Positions 334-23,007 of a stretch of 43,589 nucleotides of DNA are shown here, one piece after another. Both the position numbers and the translations under genes were made by a program. Origin of the DNA: an uncultured Neglectibacter sp. (lineage in GTDB: Bacteria; Bacillota; Clostridia; Oscillospirales; Acutalibacteraceae); NCBI GenBank assembly GCA_947647615.1, contig CANSKS010000021.1, positions 1-43,589 on the forward strand. Direction: 5' to 3'. Under the pieces are notes generated by a model. That model had not been told where the DNA came from. It saw only the letters and a list, made by a program, of their open reading frames with translations, and did not search any database. Within the stretch, counting starts at the first letter, position 1. Each line of letters starts with the position of its first letter.

Positions 334-1751
<1,418 letters not shown>

Positions 1752-1857
1752 GTAAAAACTTGCACAGGAATGAAATAAAATGAAAAATTAAATTCATAAT
1801 ATTCAGAGAATCCCTGGTTAGTACAGTTTGTTATATAAAAGTGGTTTTGGGAAAAAG

Positions 1858-1887
1858 TTGACAAACACCCCTGTTTTGTGTGAAAAT
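1858..1887 (+). promoter_or_regulatory. Putative glmS promoter
   Basis: TTGACA at 1858-1863 is followed 18 bp later by GAAAAT (1882-1887) preceded by TG, an extended but weak -10. This gives a leader of roughly 160 nt before glmS. I looked for the glmS ribozyme in this leader and did not recognise its conserved core. The 1666-2052 intergenic region contains nothing else I can support. Confidence 0.45.
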
Positions 1888-2052
1888 GAAAGAAAAAATG
1901 GCGTGCTTAGCTCAAAGGGGTAGAAAAGTCTCCCGGCAAGGGGTTGCTTTTTAAACCGGAAAAGGGCAGGCGTGAGATGGCAGGTTTCGTTCTTTTGGGT
2001 TTTGTCTTTTCATAAATTTTTATAGCTGGAGAAACGAAAGGAGCGGCTTATT

Positions 2053-3882
2053 ATGTGTGGAATTGTTGGGTATACCGGTATGGAGGAAGCTTCACCGTTT
2101 TTGCTGAATGGTTTGCGAAAATTGGAATACCGCGGGTACGATTCCGCCGGAGTGGCGGTGTATAACGATACGGGCCTTCACGTGGTGAAATCGAAGGGCC
2201 GGCTCAGCGTGCTGGAAGGAATCTTGGAAGGAGGAACGAAGTTGCCCGGGCGGGTGGGCATAGGCCATACCAGATGGGCTACTCATGGGGCTCCTTCGGA
2301 TGTCAATTCTCACCCTCAGGTCAGCGATGGGGGAAAATTTGCCGTGGTACACAACGGGATTATCGAAAACTACCTGGCACTGAAAAACAGGTTGATCTCC
2401 AAAGGCGTCACTTTTACTTCCGATACGGACACCGAGGTGGTGGCCCAGCTGTTGGAATATTATTATGACGGAGACGTTCTCTCCGCCATTCAAAAGGTGA
2501 TTCAACGAGTAGAAGGCAGTTATGCCTTGGGCATCCTTTGTTCGGAGTTCCCGGAAAAGATTTTTGCCGTGAGAAAAGACAGCCCCTTGATCGTGGGTGT
2601 GGGGAAGGGGGAGAACTTCATCGCCTCCGACATTCCCGCCATTCTTGCTAAAACCAGAGAAATCTACCGGCTGAAGGACCGGGAAATCGCCGTGCTCTCC
2701 AGAGAGACGATCGAATTTTATAACGGCGAAGGGGAACCGGTAGAAAAAGAAATAGAGCATATTGAATGGGATATTTCCGCTGCGGAAAAGGGCGGCTACG
2801 AGCACTTTATGATGAAGGAAATTTGCGAACAGCCCGAAGCCCTGCGCAAAACTATTTCCCCCAGGATTCGCGACGGTCACATCGTGCTGGACGATATTGA
2901 GCTTACCGCAGAATATCTGCGGGAGATCAACAAGGTGTTTATCGTGGCCTGCGGCACTGCGTATCATGTGGGCGTGGTGGCGAAATATGCCTTTGAGAGG
3001 CTTTTGAAGGTTCCTATGGAGGTGGATGTGGCTTCGGAATTCCGCTACCGCAGCCCCATTATCGACGAAAAATCCTTGGTAATCATCATCAGCCAATCCG
3101 GGGAAACCGCCGACACTCTAGCAGCTTTGCGGGAAGCGAAAAAGCAGGGAGCCAGGGTGCTTTCCATTGTCAATGTGGTGGGCAGCACCATTGCCAACGA
3201 ATCCGACGATGTGCTTTACACTTGGGCCGGACCCGAAATCGCGGTGGCCTCTACAAAGGCCTACAGCACCCAGCTGGCGGTGATTTACCTTATTGTGCTT
3301 TATATGGCGGAAAAACTGGGGACCGTTTCTGGAAAAGAGTTTGCAGAATATGTGGCGGATCTGGAACGTCTGCCGGAATTTGTGGCTTCCTGCCTGAACG
3401 ATAAAGAAACCATCCAATATTTTGCCTCCCAATATTTCAACGCAAAGGATATGTATTTCATTGGACGGAATGTGGACTATGCAGCCTCCCTGGAAGCTTC
3501 CTTAAAGCTCAAAGAAATTTCTTATATCCATTCCGAGGCATATACGGCAGGGGAATTGAAGCACGGCCCTATTTCCCTAATTGAGGACGGCACTTTGGTG
3601 ATCGCCATTAGCACCTATGAAAAGCTATTCGATAAAATGGTGTCGAATATCAAAGAGGTAAAGGCCAGGGGAGCGGTGGTGCTGGGCATTACTACTCAGA
3701 GAAAGAGAAAGGCTATGCTGGACGCTGTGGATCATGTTTTTTGCGTCCCTAAAATTTCCGATTTTATGTTGCCTTCGCTGTCCATTATCCCCTTGCAGCT
3801 GTTTGCCTATTATGTGGCTTCTATGAAGGGCTGTGATATCGATAAGCCCAGAAACTTGGCCAAGTCGGTCACTGTGGAATAA
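2053..3882 (+). CDS. glmS: Glutamine-fructose-6-phosphate aminotransferase
   Basis: The 609-residue protein makes glucosamine-6-phosphate from fructose-6-phosphate and glutamine, the first step toward UDP-GlcNAc and peptidoglycan. It starts MCGIVGY, so cysteine 2 becomes the N-terminal glutaminase nucleophile. The class-II amidotransferase domain spans about residues 1-220 (HTRWATHG, HNGIIENY). Two SIS sugar-isomerase domains follow (about 285-420 and 455-600; ISQSGETADT and the C-terminal DKPRNLAKSVTVE). Length is typical for the family. The start is fixed by the obligatory Cys2 and by AAGGAG about 10 nt upstream. A GNAT acetyltransferase follows 34 nt later and may be cotranscribed. Confidence 0.97.
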   Translation: MCGIVGYTGMEEASPFLLNGLRKLEYRGYDSAGVAVYNDTGLHVVKSKGRLSVLEGILEGGTKLPGRVGIGHTRWATHGAPSDVNSHPQVSDGGKFAVVHNGIIENYLALKNRLISKGVTFTSDTDTEVVAQLLEYYYDGDVLSAIQKVIQRVEGSYALGILCSEFPEKIFAVRKDSPLIVGVGKGENFIASDIPAILAKTREIYRLKDREIAVLSRETIEFYNGEGEPVEKEIEHIEWDISAAEKGGYEHFMMKEICEQPEALRKTISPRIRDGHIVLDDIELTAEYLREINKVFIVACGTAYHVGVVAKYAFERLLKVPMEVDVASEFRYRSPIIDEKSLVIIISQSGETADTLAALREAKKQGARVLSIVNVVGSTIANESDDVLYTWAGPEIAVASTKAYSTQLAVIYLIVLYMAEKLGTVSGKEFAEYVADLERLPEFVASCLNDKETIQYFASQYFNAKDMYFIGRNVDYAASLEASLKLKEISYIHSEAYTAGELKHGPISLIEDGTLVIAISTYEKLFDKMVSNIKEVKARGAVVLGITTQRKRKAMLDAVDHVFCVPKISDFMLPSLSIIPLQLFAYYVASMKGCDIDKPRNLAKSVTVE

Positions 3883-7005: not shown

Positions 7006-8799
7006 ATGAAAATCACCAACGATATTCTCTATGTAGGCGTCAACGATCACGAAGTAGACCTGTTTGAAGGGCAGTATGTGGTGCCCAATGGGATGTCCTA
7101 CAATTCTTATGTGATCAAGGATGAAAAAATCGCGGTCATGGATACGGTAGATGCCCGGTTTACCCATGAATGGCTGGATAATGTGGAAAAAGCTTTGGCG
7201 GGCGCGAAGCCCGATTACCTGATCGTACAGCATATGGAACCGGACCATGCGGCCAATATTCACAATTTCATGAAGGCCTATCCCAACACTACGGTAGTAG
7301 CCAATGGAAAAACCTTCACGATGATGGCAAATTTTTTCCGAGATATGGATCTGGGAGGAAAAAAGCTGGAGGTGGAAAACGGGGGAACGCTTACCTTGGG
7401 CAAGCATGTCCTCACCTTTGTATTCGCCCCCATGGTGCATTGGCCGGAAGTGATGGTCACCTATGACAGTACCGATAAAGTACTCTTTTCTGCCGACGGC
7501 TTTGGCAAGTTCGGCGCTTTGGATGTAGAGGAAGATTGGGACTGCGAAGCCCGCCGCTATTTTATTGGCATTGTGGGGAAATATGGCGCCCAGGTGCAGA
7601 ATCTTTTAAAAGCGGCAGCTACCTTGGATATTCGTGTCATTTGTCCCCTGCACGGGCCTGTCCTTACCGAAAATCTGGGCCATTACTTGGAAAAATACGA
7701 TATTTGGTCTTCTTACAGCGTAGAGTCCGAAGGCGTGATGATCGCCTATACCTCCGTTTATGGCCACACGAAAAAGGCGGTAGAGATCCTGGCCGGTAAG
7801 CTGAGGGAAAAAGGCTGTCCCAAAGTGGTGGTCTGCGACCTGGCCCGCAGCGATATGGCGGAGGCTGTGGAAGACGCTTTCCGTTATGGTAAGCTGGTGC
7901 TGGCCACAACCACCTATAATTCCGAAATTTTCCCCTTCATGCGGGACTTTATTGACCACTTGGTGGAGCGAAATTACCAGAAGCGCACCATTGGCCTAAT
8001 CGAAAACGGCACTTGGGCGCCTATGGCCGCCAAAGTGATGCAAAAAATGTTGGCAGGCTGCAAAAATATCACTTGGCTCCACGACACGGTGAAGATCATG
8101 TCTTCGCTCAGCGAAGAGAATATGGAGCAGCTAGAAAATATGGCCTCTGAACTGAGCAAGGAGTATATTGCCCAGTCCGCAGAGCGGGCTAACAAAAATG
8201 ATATGACTGCCCTCTTTAAAATTGGCTACGGCCTTTATGTGGTTACTTCCAACGACGGTAACCGGGATAACGGCATTATTGTAAATACCGTGACCCAGCT
8301 TACCGATACGCCTAACCGAGTGGCAGTAAATATCAACAAGGCAAACTATTCTCACCATGTCATTAAAAAAACAGGGGTGATGAACGTAAACTGCCTTTCA
8401 GTGGAAGCACCCTTTCATGTGTTTGAAAACTTCGGATTCCAAAGCGGACGGCAAGTGGATAAATTCGCCAACTGGCCCACCTTGCGATCCGATAATGGCC
8501 TGGTGTTCCTGCCAAAATATATCAACGCATTCCTTTCTTTAAAAGTGGAGCAATACGTGGACCTGGACACCCACGGCATGTTCATCTGTACCGTTACAGA
8601 AGCCCGTGTCATGAGCGATAAAGAGACTATGACCTACACCTATTACCAGAAGAATGTGAAGCCCAAACCCCAAACAGAGGGGAAGAAGGGCTTTGTCTGC
8701 AAAGTCTGCGGCTATGTTTATGAAGGCGATACCTTGCCCGACGATTATATCTGCCCGCTCTGCAAGCATGGCGCAGCCGATTTTGAACCCATCGAATAA
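7006..8799 (+). CDS. Flavodiiron protein fused to flavin reductase and rubredoxin domains
   Basis: The 597-residue protein carries four redox modules. An N-terminal metallo-beta-lactamase-like domain has the diiron ligands of flavodiiron proteins (H76-x-E78-x-D80-H81, H145, D164, H216). A flavodoxin FMN domain begins near residue 244 (IAYTSVYGHTKKA). An FMN-binding split-barrel flavin-reductase-like domain spans about 405-545. A C-terminal rubredoxin has Cys 565, 568, 583 and 586. Such enzymes reduce O2 (or NO) to water (or N2O) in the cytoplasm and protect anaerobes. Having both electron-entry modules suggests the chain can be fed by a flavin reductant or by a rubredoxin reductase. The start at 7006 follows GGAAGGGG; the frame is open 20 codons upstream without a ribosome site. 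Confidence 0.92.
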   Translation: MKITNDILYVGVNDHEVDLFEGQYVVPNGMSYNSYVIKDEKIAVMDTVDARFTHEWLDNVEKALAGAKPDYLIVQHMEPDHAANIHNFMKAYPNTTVVANGKTFTMMANFFRDMDLGGKKLEVENGGTLTLGKHVLTFVFAPMVHWPEVMVTYDSTDKVLFSADGFGKFGALDVEEDWDCEARRYFIGIVGKYGAQVQNLLKAAATLDIRVICPLHGPVLTENLGHYLEKYDIWSSYSVESEGVMIAYTSVYGHTKKAVEILAGKLREKGCPKVVVCDLARSDMAEAVEDAFRYGKLVLATTTYNSEIFPFMRDFIDHLVERNYQKRTIGLIENGTWAPMAAKVMQKMLAGCKNITWLHDTVKIMSSLSEENMEQLENMASELSKEYIAQSAERANKNDMTALFKIGYGLYVVTSNDGNRDNGIIVNTVTQLTDTPNRVAVNINKANYSHHVIKKTGVMNVNCLSVEAPFHVFENFGFQSGRQVDKFANWPTLRSDNGLVFLPKYINAFLSLKVEQYVDLDTHGMFICTVTEARVMSDKETMTYTYYQKNVKPKPQTEGKKGFVCKVCGYVYEGDTLPDDYICPLCKHGAADFEPIE

Positions 8800-8811
8800 G
8801 TAGTTTTTCAT

Positions 8812-8843
8812 ATCTACTCCGAAGCTTTGGCTTCGGAGTAGAT
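8812..8843 (+). terminator. Terminator after the flavodiiron gene
   Basis: A perfect 14-bp stem (8812-8825 with 8830-8843, loop TTTG) starts 12 nt after the stop. The trailing tract is only moderately T-rich. Confidence 0.7.
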
Positions 8844-8873
8844 TGTTGTATGGGTCGCCTTGTGTGCTAGGGC

Positions 8874-8902
8874 TTGTATTTTCGGCCTTAATATGCTATA
8901 GT
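8874..8902 (+). promoter_or_regulatory. Promoter of the gtr-like cassette
   Basis: TTGTAT (8874-8879), a 17-bp spacer and TATAGT (8897-8902) preceded by TGC, an extended -10. It lies about 95 nt upstream of the first gtr gene. Confidence 0.65.
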
Positions 8903-8998
8903 AACTGAGCATTGGACAGTTTTTCCAGGTATGTTCCCTTGGCTTTTTGCACGGGTTTTAACATAATCGTATCTTGCCAATAGGAGGCTGGTAGTTTG

Positions 8999-10609
8999 AT
9001 GGAAGAAAGATCGGAGCGCCGGGGCTGGCCCGACTTGCTGGGCCTTTGGAGACGAATCTCAAAAGAAGCCAGGCTGGCTTTTTTGTCTGCCATGGGGATT
9101 GGCTTTGTGGTGCATCTCTATGTGTTCTCCAATTTGTTGATTAACCACGACAGCGCGGTCTGCCTGACTTCAAAAAACGAGCACCTTACCAGCGGTAGGT
9201 GGTCTTTGGGTTTTTTCTCCCAGTTCAGCTGGGTATATGAAATGCCCGTGGTAATTGTCCTGCTCTCTCTGTTTGCTCTGGCCTGCACCGCGGCCCTTAC
9301 TGTGAAGGTGTTAGATATTTCCAGCCCAGCAGGTATCTTGTTGACTTCGGGTTTTTTAGTTTCGTTCCCTTCTGTTTGTTGTGTGTTTCCCTATCTTTAT
9401 ACGGCAGATGCCTACTTTTTTGCCCTTTTGCTCAACGCTCTTAGCGTGTACTTGACAAAACGGTTTCGCTTTGGCTGGATAGCTGCGCCCTTCTGTATTG
9501 CCTTGGGTTTGGGCATTTACCAGTCTTTTGTCTGTTATGCGGTGGCCTTGTTTCTGTTTGACTGTGCGGCAGCTCTCCTTTCCGGCGGGACCATCAAAAA
9601 AGTGCTGAAGCAGGGGGGAAAGTATGTCCTCCTCATTGCGGCAGGATTGGTGATGTATCGAGTGTTCCTGGCCTTCTTCCTGTGGAGTGCCGGTACTTCC
9701 CTTTCCAATTATAAAGGCATGTCGGAAGCCTTGAACAGCGGGGTGCTGGATTATTTACGCACTTTGCCGGGGGTTTACCAAACCTTTTTCCAGTTCTTTT
9801 TGCGGCCTTCTTTTTTGACACGGCCTCTCCAGCTGTTTCAAAGGGCTCTTTTCCTGTTTGCCGGGGTCTGCGGCATTTATTATGTGTTGGCAAAGCGGAT
9901 GTATCGCGAACCTGTAAGGCTGTTGCTGCTATTTGCCGGAGCGCTGCTGACGCCACCCGCGGTAAATTTGATCGGTATTATCGCGGCAGGGCAAACGGAA
10001 GTAAACCTGTTGATGAAATACTCCTTTGTCCTGGTATTTGTATTTGTGATAAAAATTTTGGAGCTGACTTTCCGGCATTTGGCGGAGCGGGATTTTTCCA
10101 ATACGCGGTTGGGAAAGTTTTTTAAACTGAGTTGGAAATTCCCGATGGCGGCAAGCCTCTTGGTTTGCTTCCTTTTGGTGTGGCATTATTTTTGCCTGAC
10201 CAACGCCGCCTACTTGCGCGTGGAGCTGATATATGAAAATAGCTATGCTCTGGCCAACCGCATTATGGCCAGAGTGGAAGAAATGGATGAATACACTTCC
10301 TCTACTCCGGTGGTGTTTTCGGGAAGCGCAATGGGATACTTTGGAAATTTGCAGGCATTTCCGGAACTTTCGGAATTTAGCGGCATGGAGACTACCCTGG
10401 TTTCCGATTACTGCGGTACGGCTTTTGTACGAGTCTTTTTAGGCAGCCCCAAGTGTGTCGCGACCCCGGAGCAGCGCCAAGAGGTTCTGGATTCCGGTGT
10501 GCTGGATTCTATGCCAATTTATCCCCATAAAGATTCTATTCGTTATTATAACGGTATGGTTTTGGTTAAGCTGAGCCAAGGCACCAATATTTCGGTATTT
10601 CCAGGGTAA
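8999..10609 (+). CDS. GtrII-like polytopic membrane glycosyltransferase
   Basis: The roughly 536-residue hydrophobic protein resembles the Glucos_trans_II family. These enzymes move a sugar from a polyprenyl-phosphate donor onto a surface polymer on the outer face of the membrane. It has many membrane segments from about residue 28 to 400, with conserved-looking early INHDSAV and TSGRW stretches in an extracytoplasmic loop, and a soluble C-terminal domain of about 120 residues. AGGAGG at 8982-8987 serves either the ATG at 8999 or an adjacent TTG at 8996. The following GT2 and GtrA genes complete the usual three-part system, so this is the polymer-specific transferase. The target (teichoic acid, capsule or glycan) is unknown. 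Confidence 0.75.
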   Translation: MEERSERRGWPDLLGLWRRISKEARLAFLSAMGIGFVVHLYVFSNLLINHDSAVCLTSKNEHLTSGRWSLGFFSQFSWVYEMPVVIVLLSLFALACTAALTVKVLDISSPAGILLTSGFLVSFPSVCCVFPYLYTADAYFFALLLNALSVYLTKRFRFGWIAAPFCIALGLGIYQSFVCYAVALFLFDCAAALLSGGTIKKVLKQGGKYVLLIAAGLVMYRVFLAFFLWSAGTSLSNYKGMSEALNSGVLDYLRTLPGVYQTFFQFFLRPSFLTRPLQLFQRALFLFAGVCGIYYVLAKRMYREPVRLLLLFAGALLTPPAVNLIGIIAAGQTEVNLLMKYSFVLVFVFVIKILELTFRHLAERDFSNTRLGKFFKLSWKFPMAASLLVCFLLVWHYFCLTNAAYLRVELIYENSYALANRIMARVEEMDEYTSSTPVVFSGSAMGYFGNLQAFPELSEFSGMETTLVSDYCGTAFVRVFLGSPKCVATPEQRQEVLDSGVLDSMPIYPHKDSIRYYNGMVLVKLSQGTNISVFPG

Positions 10610-12526: not shown

Positions 12527-12677
12527 GAGGCTATGACGTTATGCCGGAGATCTTTTGTGAAACGGTTTTTCTGCTTTGAAATGTTCACGGGGAATGAACA
12601 ATGGTACATGGAAGAAGAAAAGTCTGCAAGAACGCCTTTTACAGCTTGCGTGGCAAGAGAGAAAGAGGAGTGAGACC

Positions 12678-13592
12678 ATGGTAAAGTATGTTGTAAAACG
12701 TACTATTTTGGCTGTGATTACGATCATCATTATCAGCGCCATTACGTTTTTCACCATGTACGCGGTGCCCGGTGGCCCGTTTGATGGAGAAAAGGCGTTG
12801 TCCCCCGCCGTAAAGGCGGCGTTGGAGGAGCGCTATGGGTTAAACGATCCTATTCCTGTACAGTATCTCAATTATATGCGTAAGCTAATTTTTGAGCAGG
12901 ATTTTGGTGTGGGCTTAAAAACCGGACGGAATGTGTTGGATACCATTTTGACGGGTATGAAGGTGAGCGCTGTACTGGGCCTCGCTGCGGCAGCTGTGGC
13001 CATTGTTTGCGGACTGGTGCTTGGCTCTGTGGCTGCTTTGAACAGGGGTAAAATTTTGGATCGTATCATCGTGTTCTTTTCCACTTTGGCAACCTCCGCT
13101 CCTAGCTTTGTGTTGGCAACTTTGCTATTGTTGGTGTTCTCCATTACGCTTCGGTGGGTTCCCGCCTGGTCGGCTTCCAACCCCAACTACATTTTGCCTG
13201 TCATCTCGCTTTCCATGTATCCCATGGCATATATTACGCGTTTGACCAAGACCAGTATGTTGGACGCTCTGAACCAGGATTATATTCGTACCGCTCGGGC
13301 AAAGGGCGTGGCCAGTTATAAAGTGATCTTTAAGCATGCGCTGCGGAATGCTCTCATTCCTGTGGTGACCTATGTGGGCCCTATGATCGCCTTTATCATC
13401 ACCGGTTCCATGGTGGTGGAAACTATCTTTTCTGTAGGCGGTCTGGGCCAGGAGTTTGTTTCCGCCATAACCAACCGGGATTATACCATGATTATGGGTA
13501 CCACCATTTTCCTGGCCATTTTAATGGTTGTGGCGAATTTGATCACAGATATCGTTTACAAAATTATAGATCCCCGTATTTCGTTTGATTAA
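12678..13592 (+). CDS. oppB: Oligopeptide ABC transporter permease OppB
   Basis: The 304-residue inner-membrane permease of a dipeptide/oligopeptide importer. It begins KYVVKRTILAVITIIII, has the N-terminal periplasmic-side region typical of OppB, five further membrane segments, and the EAA-loop pattern TRLTKTSMLDALNQDYIRTARAKG near residue 200. That loop docks on the OppD/OppF ATPases. The ATG at 12678 has AGAGGAG upstream; the frame extends 34 codons further without a ribosome site. It is the first gene of an oppBCDFA operon, with OppC starting 16 nt after its stop. Confidence 0.93.
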   Translation: MVKYVVKRTILAVITIIIISAITFFTMYAVPGGPFDGEKALSPAVKAALEERYGLNDPIPVQYLNYMRKLIFEQDFGVGLKTGRNVLDTILTGMKVSAVLGLAAAAVAIVCGLVLGSVAALNRGKILDRIIVFFSTLATSAPSFVLATLLLLVFSITLRWVPAWSASNPNYILPVISLSMYPMAYITRLTKTSMLDALNQDYIRTARAKGVASYKVIFKHALRNALIPVVTYVGPMIAFIITGSMVVETIFSVGGLGQEFVSAITNRDYTMIMGTTIFLAILMVVANLITDIVYKIIDPRISFD

Positions 13593-13608
13593 GGAGGGTG
13601 AACAGATT

Positions 13609-14679
13609 ATGACAAATGATATGCCTAAAAAGAATCTGCTCAGCAGCCAGATCAACTTGGGGAAGTTTTCGCCTGCCAGCGACGAGGAAAAGCGCCAGCA
13701 AGAGGTTATGAGCAAATCTACCACCTTTTTTAAGGATGGCATGAAAAAACTGATGCGGAATCCTCTGGCGGTGGGGTCCATTGTTGTATTGATTCTGCTG
13801 ATCCTTACGATCACCATAGCTCCCATGATTATTCCTTACGGTTATGAGGAGATTAATAATGTAGGCGGCCGCCGGGATCGAGGCGCCAATAATTTAGCGC
13901 CTTTTACCTATTCCGAAGCGGAATTGAAATGGATGGAAGAAACAGGTGAGAGCCGTTTTCCTCATATTTTTGGTACCGATAACCTGGGACGCGACTACTT
14001 TATCCGCGTAATTTATGGCACCAGAGTGTCTTTGGTGGTAGGTTTCTTTGCCAGTATTCTGGTGATGATCATTGGTGTGCTTTACGGTTCTATCGCAGGC
14101 TATGCGGGCGGTAAGGTGGACCTTATCATGATGCGTATTTGCGATATCATCTATTCTTTGCCGGATCTTTTGATGGTGATTTTGCTTTCGGTGGTGCTCA
14201 GTGAAACCTTGGGCGAGGCCATTAAGGGCACGGTATTCGCAAGCTTGGGCAGCAATATGTTAGCCCTGTTCATTGTGTTTGGGTTGCTCTACTGGGTAGG
14301 TATGGCCCGCTTGGTTCGTGGGCAAATTCTCACGGTAAAAGAAAATGAATATGTTTTGGCCGCCCGTACCATTGGTACCAGGCCCAGCCGTATTTTGCGA
14401 AAGCATATTTTGCCAAACTGCTTATCTGTCATCATCATTTCGGTGGCCCTGCAGGTTCCCTCCGCTATTTTCACAGAAAGCTACCTGAGCTTTTTGGGGT
14501 TGGGCGTATCGGCCCCTATGCCTTCTTTGGGAAGTCTAGCAAACGCGGCCCGCGGTGCGTTGACCAGTTATCCCTACCAGTTGGTATTTCCGGCTGTGGT
14601 AATCTGCTTGATCGTGCTTGCCTTTAATCTCTTGGGTGATGGGCTTCGGGATGCCTTTGACCCCAAACTAAGGAGGTAA
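13609..14679 (+). CDS. oppC: Oligopeptide ABC transporter permease OppC
   Basis: The 356-residue partner permease has a soluble N-terminal extension (about 45 residues), a first membrane helix, the conserved HIFGTDNLGRDYFIRVIYGTR region near residue 120, and the EAA loop ENEYVLAARTIGTRPSRILRKH. AAGGAGG lies 11 nt before the ATG at 13609. Its stop codon overlaps the first of two possible oppD start codons, consistent with coupled translation. Confidence 0.93.
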   Translation: MTNDMPKKNLLSSQINLGKFSPASDEEKRQQEVMSKSTTFFKDGMKKLMRNPLAVGSIVVLILLILTITIAPMIIPYGYEEINNVGGRRDRGANNLAPFTYSEAELKWMEETGESRFPHIFGTDNLGRDYFIRVIYGTRVSLVVGFFASILVMIIGVLYGSIAGYAGGKVDLIMMRICDIIYSLPDLLMVILLSVVLSETLGEAIKGTVFASLGSNMLALFIVFGLLYWVGMARLVRGQILTVKENEYVLAARTIGTRPSRILRKHILPNCLSVIIISVALQVPSAIFTESYLSFLGLGVSAPMPSLGSLANAARGALTSYPYQLVFPAVVICLIVLAFNLLGDGLRDAFDPKLRR

Positions 14680-14684
14680 TGGCT

Positions 14685-15803
14685 ATGAGTGAACACCTTT
14701 TATCTGTAAAAAATCTGCATACTTCCTTTACTACCGATAATGGTCAGGTTCATGCCGTAAACGGCGTCTCTTTCGATTTGGATGCCGGGAAGGTGTTGGG
14801 CATTGTAGGAGAATCTGGTTCCGGTAAATCGGTGACCGCTTATTCTATTATGCAGATTCTGGCCGAAAACGGGAGCATCACCGGTGGCAGTATCGAGTAT
14901 AAGGGCGAGGATATTACCAAGTGGAATAGAAAGCAAATGTCTTCCTTCCGGGGCAAATGCTGCTCCATTATTTTCCAGGATCCTATGACTTCCCTGAATC
15001 CGGTGTTTTCCATTGGCAGTCAGCTGCAAGAGGCTATTTTGCTCCATACGGATAAAACTAAGGCCGAAGCTCGGGAACGTTCCATAGAGCTTTTAAAACT
15101 GGTGGGCGTGAACGAACCTGCGAAGCGTATTAAACAGTACCCCTTTGAGCTTTCCGGCGGCATGCGCCAGCGGGTGATGATTGCTATGGCGCTGGCCTGT
15201 GAACCGGATATTCTCATTGCGGATGAACCTACCACGGCTTTGGATGTTACCATTCAGGCTCAGATTTTGGAACTGATGCAGGACCTGCAAAAAAAGCTGG
15301 GAATGGCCATTATTATGGTGACCCACGACTTGGGTGTTATTGCCACCATGTGCGATGAGATTATTGTAATGTATGGTGGCCGGGTTTGCGAGCGAGGAAC
15401 TGCCGACCACATTTTCTACGAGCCTGCCCACGAGTATACCAAGGGCTTGCTTCGTTCCATTCCCAATGTGGACAACGCGAAGGAGCGCTTGGTACCCATC
15501 GCAGGCAACCCCATTAACCTTTTGAATATGCCGGCGGGTTGTGCTTTTTGTTCCCGTTGTGACAAAGCAATGAAGATTTGTCTAGAAGCCGTGCCGGCGG
15601 AACGTCCGGTGGGGAAAGACCACTTGGCTTCTTGTTGGCTGAACGACTTAGCCCTGCAGGAAAAGGCCGAAACTTTGACCGCCGAGGGAATCCCGGCGGA
15701 AAAGATTCAAGAGCAGACCGGTTGGAAAAAAGATGGAAACGGTGAATGGGTCTATGACCTTGCCAGTTCCGGACAGGGAGGAGAGGTCACCTTTGAGCAG
15801 TGA
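14685..15803 (+). CDS. oppD: Oligopeptide ABC transporter ATPase OppD
   Basis: The 372-residue nucleotide-binding subunit has Walker A GESGSGKS (residues 42-49), signature LSGGMRQRV, Walker B ILIADEPTTALD and the C-terminal oligopeptide-transporter motif with clustered cysteines (CAFCSRC..C) typical of OppD/DppD. These cysteines can hold a 4Fe-4S cluster in related proteins. Two in-frame ATGs exist, at 14679 and 14685. The AGGAGG at 14671-14676 is only 2 nt from the first and 8 nt from the second, so I choose 14685. The C-terminus has a short extra tail beyond the family core. Confidence 0.93.
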   Translation: MSEHLLSVKNLHTSFTTDNGQVHAVNGVSFDLDAGKVLGIVGESGSGKSVTAYSIMQILAENGSITGGSIEYKGEDITKWNRKQMSSFRGKCCSIIFQDPMTSLNPVFSIGSQLQEAILLHTDKTKAEARERSIELLKLVGVNEPAKRIKQYPFELSGGMRQRVMIAMALACEPDILIADEPTTALDVTIQAQILELMQDLQKKLGMAIIMVTHDLGVIATMCDEIIVMYGGRVCERGTADHIFYEPAHEYTKGLLRSIPNVDNAKERLVPIAGNPINLLNMPAGCAFCSRCDKAMKICLEAVPAERPVGKDHLASCWLNDLALQEKAETLTAEGIPAEKIQEQTGWKKDGNGEWVYDLASSGQGGEVTFEQ

Positions 15804-16839
15804 ATATTTGATCGAGGTAGAACACCTGAAGCAGTATTTCCCCATTCGTACCGGATTTGTAAAAACTACTCCTTTAAAGGCGGTGGATGATATATCTTTC
15901 GCCATTAAGCCCGGCGAAACCTTAGGCTTAGTGGGGGAATCCGGCTGTGGAAAAACTACTGTGGGCCGCACCTTGCTTCAGCTTTACCGTCCTACGGGCG
16001 GCAGGGTAAAATACGATGGCGAAGTGATTTTTGATGCCGGCGATGTGCCGGAAACAGATGCTTCGGGGGAAGTGAAGCTTGGCTCTGACGGTAAGCCGCT
16101 GCTTTCTAAAAGACTTTCTGTAAATATGCTGCCCTACCGGAAAAAGATGCAGATGGTGTTCCAAGATCCTTATTCTTCTTTGAATCCTCGTATGACGGTA
16201 GAAGATATTATAGGCGAACCCTTAGATGTGCATAAGCTTTACGCCAATAAGGCGGAGCGCCGGGAGAAGATTTTAAATTTAATGGAGCTGGTGGGGCTTA
16301 ATGCAGAACACGCCACTCGTTATGCTCATGAGTTCTCCGGCGGTCAGCGTCAGCGTATAGGAATTGCCCGTGCGTTGGCGGTGGATCCTCGCTTCATTGT
16401 TTGCGATGAACCCGTTTCTGCTTTGGACGTATCCATTCAGGCCCAGGTTGTAAATATGTTTGAAGATCTTCAGCAGAAGCTGGGCGTGGCCTATTTGTTT
16501 ATTGCCCATGACCTTCTGGTAGTGAATCATATTTCGGACCGCATCGCTGTTATGTATTTAGGGAAAATGATGGAGATGGCAGATTCCGACGAGCTGATGA
16601 ACAACCCCATTCATCCCTATACCCAGTCATTGCTTTCGGCGGTTCCTCTGCCAGATCCCAAGTCTGCCAGAGAACGCCAGCGCATTGTGCTGGAAGGCGA
16701 TGTGCCCAGTCCTTTGAACATGCCCAGTGGCTGCCCCTTCCGCACTCGCTGCCGTTACGCGACGGAACAGTGTGGTGCTCAGCGGCCGGCCTTGACCGAC
16801 CGGGGCAATGGGCATATGGTAGCCTGCTGGAACAAATAA
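15793..16839 (+). CDS. oppF: Oligopeptide ABC transporter ATPase OppF
   Basis: The second ATPase, 348 residues, has Walker A GESGCGKTT, signature FSGGQRQRIGIARA, Walker B FIVCDEPVSALD and a C-terminal CPFRTRCRYATEQC cysteine motif. About 35 residues are inserted between the Walker A region and the Q-loop (VFQDPYSSLNPR), as in many clostridial OppF proteins. I take the TTG at 15793 (reading SSEYLIEVEHLKQYF) as the start, because GGAGG(A) lies about 10 nt upstream and the protein then begins where the family does. A longer in-frame reading from 15733 lies wholly within oppD. The start overlaps the oppD end by 11 nt. Confidence 0.9.
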   Translation: MSSEYLIEVEHLKQYFPIRTGFVKTTPLKAVDDISFAIKPGETLGLVGESGCGKTTVGRTLLQLYRPTGGRVKYDGEVIFDAGDVPETDASGEVKLGSDGKPLLSKRLSVNMLPYRKKMQMVFQDPYSSLNPRMTVEDIIGEPLDVHKLYANKAERREKILNLMELVGLNAEHATRYAHEFSGGQRQRIGIARALAVDPRFIVCDEPVSALDVSIQAQVVNMFEDLQQKLGVAYLFIAHDLLVVNHISDRIAVMYLGKMMEMADSDELMNNPIHPYTQSLLSAVPLPDPKSARERQRIVLEGDVPSPLNMPSGCPFRTRCRYATEQCGAQRPALTDRGNGHMVACWNK

Positions 16840-16951
16840 ACCTGTTCCGGCCCTTATACTTGCAAATTCCGGCTTCGTCTTTGACGAACCGTAATTTAAT
16901 TTATTTTTCGCGGTGGCAAATGCCACGCAACATTATGGAGGTATGAAAACC

Positions 16952-18781
16952 ATGAAAAAGCTGATTGCTCTTTTGCTGGTTCTGGCTATGTGCCTTAGTC
17001 TGGCGGCTTGCGGAGAAACCCCTGCCAGCAGCACGGCTTCCAGCAGTTCTGAGTCCAGCAGCACTAGCAGTGCTTCTGAGCCTGCGGAGTCCAGCGAAGT
17101 TTCTGAAACAGGAACTCAGGGCTACCAGATCCCTGACACTATTGATCCTGTGAACGATTGGGGCAAGTATGATGACCTCATTCAACAGATCCGTACTACG
17201 ACCGATACTGCCGAACGTGCTCAACTGATGCATCAGGCAGAGGATATGCTGATGGAAACAGGAGCTATTTTGCCCTTGTACTTCTACACCGATATCTATA
17301 TGCAGAAGGAGTACTTGAAGAACGTTTATACCACTCCCTTTGGCTATAAGTATTTTATGTTCTCTTCCTTGGACAACGGCTCCGATACCCTGCGTCTTTA
17401 CATTGCTTCTGAGCCCGATAAGCTGGACCCTGCGCTTAACTCTACCGTAGACGGCGCTATCCTGGCTATTAACTCTTTTGCAGGCCTGATGACCTACGAC
17501 GAGTCCGGCAAGCAGGTTTACGATGTGGCGGAATCTCACACTGTTTCTGAAGACGGCCTCACTTATACCTTTACCCTGAGAGACGGTTTGAAGTGGTCCA
17601 ACGGCGATCCGCTGGATGCCAACGACTTCGTTTATTCTTGGAACCGTGCCGCTGCTCCTACCACTGGCTCTGACTATGGCTACATGTTTGCTCCCATTAA
17701 GGGCTATGCGGAAATGACAGAAATGGACGACGCAGGAAATTTGGTAAATCCCGACGCCAAGTTGGAGGTTTCTGCTTCTGAGGACGGCAAGACTTTGACT
17801 ATTGTTTTGGAGGCTCCCTGCGCCTACTTCATGGATCTGGCCGCGTTCCCCACTTATTTTCCGGTACACAAGGCTTCTGTTGAAGCTGCCGATCCCGACG
17901 GCTCCAACCCCGGTGCCTGGGCTTTGGAGGCTGGCTTTGTCTGCAATGGTGCTTACACTTTGACTGGCTGGAACCACAAGAGCTCTATGACCTATGAAAA
18001 GAACCCCAACTACCATCGTGCCAGCGAAGTCACCATTCAGAAGCAAGAATTTATGCTGACTTCCGACGAGACTGCCGCTTATAGTGCTTATAACGCCGGA
18101 GACCTGGATTTCAGCGACGGTATTCCCACTGCCGAGATCGCTGCTGCCAAGCAGACCCCCGATTTCAAGCTGATTAACACTTTGGGATGCTATTATGTTG
18201 CATTCAATGTAAAGAGCGACTTGTTCAAGGATATGACTCCCGGTGAGGCCAGCACCTTCCGCCGCGCTTTGGCTCTGCTCATCGACCGCGAGTATATCGT
18301 GACCAATATTGGTCAGGCCGAGCAGGTTCCTGCCGATTCCTTCATTCCTTCCGGTACTCTGGACGGCACTGGAAACGAGTTTAAGAATAAGTCCTATTAC
18401 AGTGTGGATCCTGCCGATTATGAAGCCAATGTGGACGAAGCTATTTCCATGCTGGAAGCCTTGGGCTACAAATTTGAAGATGGCATGCTCTCCAGCGAGA
18501 CGCCTATTAGCTTCGAGTACCTGGTAAACACTCCCGGCGCCAATATTGATGTTGCCGAGGCGATTCAGCAGGACTTTGCTACGATTGGCATTGATATGAC
18601 TATCGCCGAACAGGAATGGAGTGTGTTCCTGAACGAACGTAAGGCCGGCAACTTCGACATTGCCCGCAATGGCTGGCTGCTGGATTACAACGATGCCTTC
18701 AATATGCTGGAAATGTGGACGACCGATTCCGGCAATAACGACTGCCAGTTCGGTCGTTATGATGGTTGGGATAAGAAATAA
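16952..18781 (+). CDS. oppA: Peptide-binding lipoprotein OppA, apparently circularly permuted
   Basis: The 609-residue substrate-binding lipoprotein (family 5) of the opp importer. Signal peptide residues 1-19, lipobox LAAC with acylated Cys20, then a Ser/Thr-rich linker to about 60. The expected mature start, TLRLYIASEPDKLDPALN, appears only at residue 146. Residues about 71-139 instead carry what in relatives is the last segment of the protein (AERAQLMHQAEDMLMETGAI, then LPLYFYTDIYM, then TPFGYKYFMF). The polypeptide ends at RYDGWDKK, just after GNFDIARNGWLLDYNDAF, where relatives continue into that segment. All family parts are therefore present, but rotated. I chose the ATG at 16952 (GGAGG 10 nt upstream) over 16943 (1 nt). 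It is the last operon gene, before a strong terminator. Confidence 0.92.
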   Translation: MKKLIALLLVLAMCLSLAACGETPASSTASSSSESSSTSSASEPAESSEVSETGTQGYQIPDTIDPVNDWGKYDDLIQQIRTTTDTAERAQLMHQAEDMLMETGAILPLYFYTDIYMQKEYLKNVYTTPFGYKYFMFSSLDNGSDTLRLYIASEPDKLDPALNSTVDGAILAINSFAGLMTYDESGKQVYDVAESHTVSEDGLTYTFTLRDGLKWSNGDPLDANDFVYSWNRAAAPTTGSDYGYMFAPIKGYAEMTEMDDAGNLVNPDAKLEVSASEDGKTLTIVLEAPCAYFMDLAAFPTYFPVHKASVEAADPDGSNPGAWALEAGFVCNGAYTLTGWNHKSSMTYEKNPNYHRASEVTIQKQEFMLTSDETAAYSAYNAGDLDFSDGIPTAEIAAAKQTPDFKLINTLGCYYVAFNVKSDLFKDMTPGEASTFRRALALLIDREYIVTNIGQAEQVPADSFIPSGTLDGTGNEFKNKSYYSVDPADYEANVDEAISMLEALGYKFEDGMLSSETPISFEYLVNTPGANIDVAEAIQQDFATIGIDMTIAEQEWSVFLNERKAGNFDIARNGWLLDYNDAFNMLEMWTTDSGNNDCQFGRYDGWDKK

Positions 18782-18834
18782 TCTTCTCCCTAAAAGCGGC
18801 AAAGACTAAATGCCTGTTTTAAAAGAAAAATAAA

Positions 18835-18880
18835 ATTGAGCACCGTTCGCCCGAAGAGGGCGGCGGTGCTCAATCTTTTT
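18835..18880 (+). terminator. opp operon terminator
   Basis: Outer stem ATTGAGCACCG (18835-18845) / CGGTGCTCAAT (18864-18874) with an inner CGCCC/GGGCG stem, followed by CTTTTTT. It is a strong intrinsic terminator 54 nt after the oppA stop. Confidence 0.9.
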
Positions 18881-21968: not shown

Positions 21969-23007
21969 TGTAGGATTGTCAAACAAATTGGATAAGGAAG
22001 TGGGAAGGAGAAAGCCAATTAAGAGGCCTCATGGGGAAATTGTTGGAGCGGCGGTTGTGAATAGAAAGCTGGTTTGCAAAATCGTCGAGAGAGTAGAAAC
22101 GGTGGCAGGAGTAAAAACGCTTTTGGTCCTCACGGTGGCTACGTTCGACCTTGCCGTTATGCCGTGGGGTATACGGGCGAATCAGTTTGTGCCGGATCCC
22201 CAATTGAGCAGCGGTCTTCTCAAAAAGGGTTGGGATATCCCGTTTGCTGTTAGAGAAACGGTTGGTGAACTCAAAACCATTGTCGGTCTGGACGCATTCA
22301 ACATGGAGGCCCCGTCGTGCGTACCACTTGACCAGCTTTTTGAGGAAGTCAGCGGAAGAGTAGGTTGACTGCTCGGGATAAGCGGCGAGAAAACGTAGAC
22401 GGGTAAACTCGTCAATAGCGGTGTATTGGAACAAATGCAGCTCTGGGTCTGTGATACACCTGCGTGGGACGACTTTGACATCTACCTGAATGCGTTGGCC
22501 GGGATAGGTCATCTGTTCATAAGGTTTGGGCTTGTAGACAGATTTCTTCTCTTTCTGAGGAAGCATTCCCAGCTTGCGCATGACACGGAATAAACTCTCT
22601 GGGCGACGGGTATATCCCCGTTTCTTGAGCCGGTACCATAATTCGATCATGCCGGGGTCAGGATTCCTACGACGCATATCTCGGATCAGCTTAAGTTCCG
22701 CCTCTGTATGCTGATTTGGGTGGCTGTGAGGCTGCCGGGACTGACAGGACAGAGACTCTATACTGCCGTCCCAGCGGGCAGATGTATGATCGGCTCTTGT
22801 TGTACTCCTACTGGCACGGCTGACACCGTATTTCTCCGCGTACTTCATCAGGGATTACCGATAGGTCATGTCTTGTGTTATACTCTTACTCATGAAGGAT
22901 CTCGTCTCCTTTTCGTACAGTTGTTGTGTGGTAACTCAACTATACCCTATGAGACTAAATCCTTCATCCTTTTTTATTCACTGTCCAATATGTATTGTAC
23001 TCCTACA
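21969..23007 (-). mobile_element. Decayed IS481/IS3-like insertion sequence
   Basis: The 1.04-kb element is bounded by imperfect inverted repeats that both begin TGTAGGA: 21969-21992 and, on the opposite strand, 23007-22984. They match at 18 of 24 positions without gaps. It contains one transposase gene on the minus strand that is broken. No target-site duplication is evident next to the repeats. It separates the methyltransferase pseudogene from the envelope operon. Confidence 0.8.
21979..22893 (-). pseudogene. Transposase (DDE integrase core), disrupted
   Basis: The protein has an N-terminal helix-turn-helix region and an rve-type DDE core: VDVK near the first Asp, VQTDNGFEF with the second Asp, and GKVERSHREDQKRFY with the catalytic Glu. 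The natural start is probably the ATG at 22893 (MSKSITQDMTYR), with AAAGGAG upstream. A TAA at 22855-22857 replaces what looks like a CAA glutamine codon. Shortly after, the reading RASRSTTRADHTSARWDG shows a compensated frameshift; the alternative frame there reads EYNKSRSYI, as expected for this family. An in-frame remainder of 289 codons from 22848 is open to the end, but it lacks an intact DNA-binding domain. Confidence 0.85.

Follow-up and report, generated by a model that had tools for sequence, protein, structure and literature searches.

The gene considered here lies at positions 16952..18781 (+) of a 43,589-nucleotide contig from an uncultured Neglectibacter sp. (CANSKS010000021.1, assembly GCA_947647615.1), the whole of which is referred to below as the window. 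It encodes a circularly permuted family-5 peptide-binding lipoprotein of 609 aa, in which the ~75 residues that close the chain elsewhere in the family come first, behind a signal peptide and a linker; this order is termed CP1. All parts of the gene are given on the + strand. The lipoprotein signal peptide (16952..17011) ends in the lipobox LAAC (residues 17-20), and Cys20 is invariant in 13/13 rows of an alignment designated A1. A Ser/Thr/Glu-rich linker (17012..17146) follows, the predicted model having a predicted local distance difference test score (pLDDT) below 50 at residues 14-55. The open reading frame (ORF), the lipobox and a Ser/Thr-rich linker had been noticed correctly in a first-pass annotation of this DNA. 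The displaced C-terminal segment, named Z (residues 66-139, 17147..17368; pLDDT ~90-96), is joined to the body by a short stretch that links the former C-terminus to the former mature N-terminus (17369..17383), whose length differs by no more than 8 residues across A1. The body (residues 145-600, 17384..18751) keeps the canonical internal order and contains the RNGWLLD motif (18665..18685, located by sequence alignment); the motif of its mature N-terminus, first placed at residue 146, needs shifting, as IASEPDKLDPALN begins at residue 151. A new C-terminal tail, GRYDGWDKK (18752..18778), was delimited in A1.

Chain order and operon context

SBP_bac_5 (PF00496) is the sole Pfam family found in the window protein, scoring 261.6 bits over residues 189-596 (cut-off 32.4). 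As the Pfam model spans the middle of the protein only and gives one ordinary-looking match, the CP1 rotation is easy to overlook. A phmmer search of PDB sequences revealed that the best match, Bacillus subtilis OppA (8are), aligns in two pieces, query residues 142-598 on chain positions 17-450 and query residues 73-136 on 457-520, the latter with an i-Evalue of 1.1e-6. The second piece of DppE (8ay0) places query residues 72-133 on 452-513 (1.2e-9), and that of Salmonella typhimurium OppA (1b05) falls at the same place, where it is not significant alone (1.5); these three alignments, out of 82 matches, were inspected in detail. Because OppA and DppE both match in two swapped pieces, the C-terminal segment of the family sits in front. 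In a seven-segment hidden Markov model (HMM) map, which names the canonical order a-b-c-d-e-f-Z, the window protein reads Z-a-b-c-d-e-f and does not have the C-terminal segment last. The two central proposals of the first-pass annotation are thereby borne out. The front residues that it gave as 71-139 (here ~66-139) match the segment that is C-terminal in OppA and DppE beyond chance, and a circularly permuted protein within an intact oppBCDF operon agrees with the swapped PDB pieces, the 80/80 loci described below, the operon genes and the confident predicted fold.

An AlphaFold2 (AF2) model of the window protein gives a confident predicted fold of the OppA type, and the PDB-sequence and structural matches shown were family-5-type proteins. 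A first AF2 model, built from 13 close sequences, had a pLDDT of 57.8 and was discarded. Arg572, Trp575 and Asp578 of the RNGWLLD motif are invariant in 85 aligned CP1 proteins; the Asp of such motifs is presumably equivalent to Asp419 of S. typhimurium OppA, which we take to bind the peptide amine. Considering this invariance, ordinary peptide binding on behalf of OppBCDF would be expected.

The genes directly upstream, identified by Pfam, are oppB (12678..13592; PF00528, PF19300) and oppC (13585..14679; PF00528, PF12911 OppC_N) for permeases, and oppD (14679..15803) and oppF (15733..16839) for ATPases (both PF00005, PF08352), all on the + strand. The ORF call for oppB begins at 12576 with TTG, and the ATG at 12678 is the likelier start. 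Behind the operon, a terminator-like stem-loop with a T-run (18858..18871, +) is a consensus match only, and the three such sites of the window are not above chance (2.0 expected in shuffles). On the opposite strand, a 633-codon antisense open frame (16901-18802, -) covers the entire binding-protein gene and is probably an effect of codon usage. About 3 kb downstream of the operon, an integrase/transposase-like protein is encoded at 21979-22848 (-), which by eye we take to be IS3-like.

Rotations among relatives

A search returned 7674 homologous proteins, and 120/120 among the matches listed have the permuted order by the HMM map; this list is redundant, including the window's own protein and many rows with identical last 400 residues. 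A scan of genome contigs yielded 240 relatives, of which 80 loci were kept, and the C-terminal segment stands in front in an ORF of 80/80; loci with identical sequence were dropped. These loci come from Lachnospiraceae, Ruminococcaceae/Oscillospiraceae-type genera, Proteiniclasticum, Solobacterium and a few metagenome-assembled genomes (MAGs) labelled Chloroflexi/Anaerolineaceae and Spirochaetales, labels that may be wrong; all are from separate assemblies, and L051 and L058 are labelled isolates. The full B-C-D-F set is found upstream on the same strand in 69/86 CP1 genes within the stretches examined. In the close pair L046/L051, the moved segment has a dN/dS (NG86) of ~0.07 and the core one of ~0.03, which indicates purifying selection on both. 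The search of genomes for the same order that the first-pass annotation had proposed therefore makes a misassembly very unlikely, and its view of the protein as a lone oddity has to be given up, since the protein belongs to a large clade and two more permutation types occur among its relatives.

The lipobox pattern is unmatched in 14/86 CP1 proteins, compared with 7/74 canonical proteins, some of which merely miss the pattern. About 10 of the 14 have Ala-X-Ala-like signal peptides (L047, L056, L057, L062, L075, L076, L077, L093, L103 and L142, of which L047 is doubtful because a Cys lies near the cleavage site) and two are truncated. In L098 a hydrophobic helix precedes a coiled-coil-like stretch, and L138 has a Cys with no Met start in view. 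Several loci are unusual in other ways. In L106, a single oppBCDF set has a canonical binding protein upstream (1650-3506) and a permuted one downstream (7788-9584), and the permuted protein of L043 (7995-9974) contains an insertion of ~50 residues within the body. L114 and L116, one permuted gene and one canonical gene from two genomes, have in-frame stops at roughly matching positions of the protein, which may reflect decay, sequencing error or recoding. These broken genes were counted in pieces, the L114 front piece being among the 86 CP1 proteins and one L116 piece being used in the trees.

Many of the relatives with rotations are from gut Clostridia, and at least two other rotations, CP2 (f-Z-a-b-c-d) and CP3 (d-f-Z-a-b-c), occur besides CP1. 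One CP2 and one CP3 protein also match OppA in rotated pieces among PDB sequences. An order-level search of 394 genomes, 49 of them with a match at E <= 1e-60, gave 29 new loci, of which 17 are canonical, 5 CP1 (with one broken gene in each of these two groups) and 7 CP2, and a class-level search of 391 genomes gave 26 more (24 canonical, 2 CP1). CP3 was found in L167, L186, L190 and L191 from further loci, and L177 encodes a diverged CP2-type protein. With a CP3 query, 119 of the 120 proteins among the matches listed have CP3 order, including P0178 with a doubled Z and two with segment b below threshold, and the remaining one is a mixed form, P0121. A P0121 query added 115 proteins (77 CP2, 29 canonical, 9 CP3). 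All rows together comprise 206 CP1, 132 CP3, 103 canonical, 85 CP2, 2 fused CP1-CP1, 1 mixed and 5 fragments, with some proteins occurring twice; these counts stem from permuted queries and are not prevalences. One CP2 protein and its unrotated sibling are 69-72% identical, and both lie directly behind oppBCDF.

In the numbering of canonical P0295, the end of CP2 proteins falls at 409-422 and their start at 416-431 (85/85), placing the cut near 410-430; CP3 proteins end at 318-325 (132/132) and start at 312-336 (119/132), the first piece of the remaining 13/132 being a signal-peptide match. Relative to L143, CP1 proteins end at 502-514 (204/206) and start at 494-514 (136/206), and 69 other starts are signal-peptide matches. 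Counted by hand along phmmer alignments, the cuts correspond to ~278-287 (CP3), 353-356 (CP2) and 441-446 (CP1) of S. typhimurium OppA. All three positions fall in domain III, whose limits we take to be 271-486. By this mapping, each rotation would move the N-terminus, and usually the membrane anchor, to another lobe.

Number and probable route of the rotations

For the sets of 106 and 75 rows, quick trees were used. The quick tree of 106 rotated sequences requires 6 changes among the four states. Canonical L161/L196 form the sister of L177 (support 100/99), and the approximately unbiased (AU) test rejected a grouping of L177 with the remaining CP2 proteins (p 2.09e-57), revealing that L177 arose independently. 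Canonical proteins separate CP1 from CP2/CP3 in the tree, and the CP2 side groups with canonical L118, L124 and L164 (99/98). A conservative parsimony count gives at least four rotations, one for CP1, one for the CP2/CP3 clade as it left canonical order, one between CP2 and CP3, and one for L177. A larger number was considered from the quick trees (6 and 8 changes) and from the AU test of a single CP3 clade, which was borderline (p 0.036), less so from that of a single CP2 clade, which was not rejected (p 0.087), and it was not adopted as firm. L138 and L192 were likewise considered as an independent CP1 origin from their divergence, and this was dropped because the quick tree puts both within the CP1 clade.

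Regarding the route, an in-frame tandem duplication or fusion with subsequent trimming of front and back is a plausible origin, the best supported and the most likely one. Fused CP1-CP1 proteins occur in L068 (5613-9599, 1329 codons) and L071 (7542-11462, 1307 codons), each in one open frame behind oppBCDF, with a single front signal peptide and an Ala/Val/Glu-rich link; their MAGs are labelled Anaerolineaceae and Chloroflexi. The CP3 protein P0178 carries a near-identical tandem copy of Z. P0121 (879 aa, order a-b-c-d-f-Z-a-b-c), from one 3.5-kb metagenome contig, has the order that a one-and-a-half-copy intermediate should show, but was rejected as a true one. Piecewise BLAST revealed 95-99% identity of its back (Z-a-b-c) to CP3 proteins and 77-80% identity of its front to the nearest, canonical relatives, and since the pieces have different nearest relatives, P0121 is regarded as a recombinant or an assembly chimera. 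The likeness of NDWGKYDD to RYDGWDKK, formerly suggested to be a leftover overlap, is weak and does not support that idea, as an RYxGWD tail occurs in just 4/13 A1 proteins and the remaining 9 end in dissimilar short tails. A search for leftover fragments beside binding-protein genes gave a single orphan behind a permuted gene, an f-Z piece right after the CP3 gene of L191 (6457-7101), which by eye belongs to another binding-protein subfamily.

Competing explanations and known systems

Taken as a whole, it is very probable that the window gene encodes a permuted receptor of OppBCDF of the CP1 type, and that it is one member of a recurrent series of rotations. The product would be the working peptide-binding lipoprotein of the adjoining importer. 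The permuted chain is predicted by the model to fold as an ordinary OppA receptor with the peptide-binding motif retained, and the moved segment would dock at its canonical C-terminal place. The lipid anchor, hence the tether point, would have shifted from domain I to domain III, according to the alignment and the domain limits assumed above.

Several observations weigh against this reading. Sequential structural aligners omit segment Z, so that superposition on OppA leaves its docking unseen. Among the PDB matches inspected (60 of 82 for the window protein, and 14 and 15 at E <= 1e-30 for the CP2 and CP3 queries), no best stretch spans the front segment and the body, and therefore no permuted member has apparently been solved. 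No clean intermediate was found among the proteins examined. Neither a single CP1 origin (AU p 0.307, with the long branches L138, L192 and L159 and the L116 piece left out) nor CP2 and CP3 as one clade (p 0.266) was rejected, so that counts above four are not firm. Canonical L117 and L143 cluster with CP1 L100 within the CP1 portion of the tree (98/92 and 98/90; 90/88 and 97/89 in a second tree), which would imply either a reversion to the canonical order or several separate gains.

There is about an even chance that the rotations are neutral, the loops of domain III tolerating cuts, tandem duplication being common and neither a new function nor an anchor advantage being gained. The canonical and CP2 siblings at 69-72% identity, both directly behind oppBCDF, and the ordinary recent tandem duplication displayed by P0178 are consistent with neutrality. 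The placement of all three cuts in one domain by the hand mapping and the independent use of one cut site twice hint at selection instead, but loop tolerance alone could give rise to this pattern. It is possible, with distinctly lower probability, that the rotations are adaptive and that an anchor moved to domain III alters tethering to, or presentation at, the importer. In the hand mapping with assumed domain limits, all cuts shift the N-terminus into the same half. The authors who described TpMglB-2 put forward an anchoring idea for the permuted receptor that they studied (PMC4990184). Anchoring is not always kept, however, as the CP1 proteins without a lipobox match indicate. A still more doubtful proposal, which sees family-5 receptors of gut Clostridia as rotated time and again in nature, joins the three cut sites, one of them used twice independently, to a possible return from CP1 to canonical order, to re-tethering from domain I to domain III in every rotation and to selection for that re-tethering.

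Addition of the front segment as an extra domain, with loss of the true C-terminus, would accord with the segment itself not being superposed on OppA; its matches to the C-terminal segments of OppA and DppE, the high model confidence at this segment and the match of the same segment HMM at the back of canonical relatives make this highly improbable. An assembly or binning artefact, in which fragments of neighbouring binding-protein genes were joined in the wrong order, might be suspected from the 94 contigs of the fragmented window genome, from the lack of any match including the front segment in 28 other same-genus genomes (E <= 1e-20) and from an OppC just 44-48% identical to the best same-genus matches (14 genomes; one more, partial, at 53%), but the same order in all 80 loci of separate assemblies, with two labelled isolates, and the open frame under purifying selection in relatives leave it a negligible probability. 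The same-genus search gave 23 loci, of which 21 were mappable, and 21/21 have canonical order. A nearby inositol-phosphatase-like gene shows 56-67% identity in 16/17 same-genus genomes with a match, the other being a 41% fragment. As OppC is less alike within the genus than this gene, the pattern would fit an operon that was either gained horizontally or selectively retained.

Most natural circular permutations are known from single ancient events that have left little sequence identity. The three rotations of this receptor family, its sibling pair at 69-72% identity and the dual locus of L106 make several questions testable, namely the gene-level origin of permutation, the tolerance of certain cuts and the relevance of the tether point for an ABC importer. 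The family thus constitutes a natural series for testing the re-ordering of protein chains.

The window protein shares with B. subtilis OppA (8are) and DppE (8ay0) the PF00496 family, the predicted fold, the oppBCDF context, the RxGWxxDYND-type motif and the lipobox. It differs from them in that the C-terminal segment comes first (CP1), other blocks coming first in CP2 and CP3. OppA/DppE-type family-5 proteins are, we assume, members of cluster C. A report of a permuted OppA or SBP_bac_5 protein was not found in the open-licence literature, covering titles and the starts of abstracts, with most subscription journals and all bioRxiv preprints outside this coverage, which is weak evidence of novelty. 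No sugar receptor like TpMglB-2 is among the structural matches listed, which excludes nothing. TpMglB-2 (Tp0684) of Treponema pallidum is a circularly permuted glucose-binding protein proposed as Type Ic/Cluster Bc, which keeps ligand binding and has homologues in treponemes and gut Gram-positives (PMC4990184). It is the precedent for the window protein, being likewise a naturally permuted binding protein of an ABC importer, and differs in having a Type I/Cluster B sugar fold instead of family 5 and one permutation with a poorly conserved moved part. The cpRAS and YRG/YlqF-type GTPases, described as a family naturally permuted in at least two ways (PMC2430557), display the same multiple natural permutation in proteins unrelated to the window receptor. 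Compared with TpMglB-2, the family of the window protein has three cut sites and siblings of differing order at 69-72% identity.
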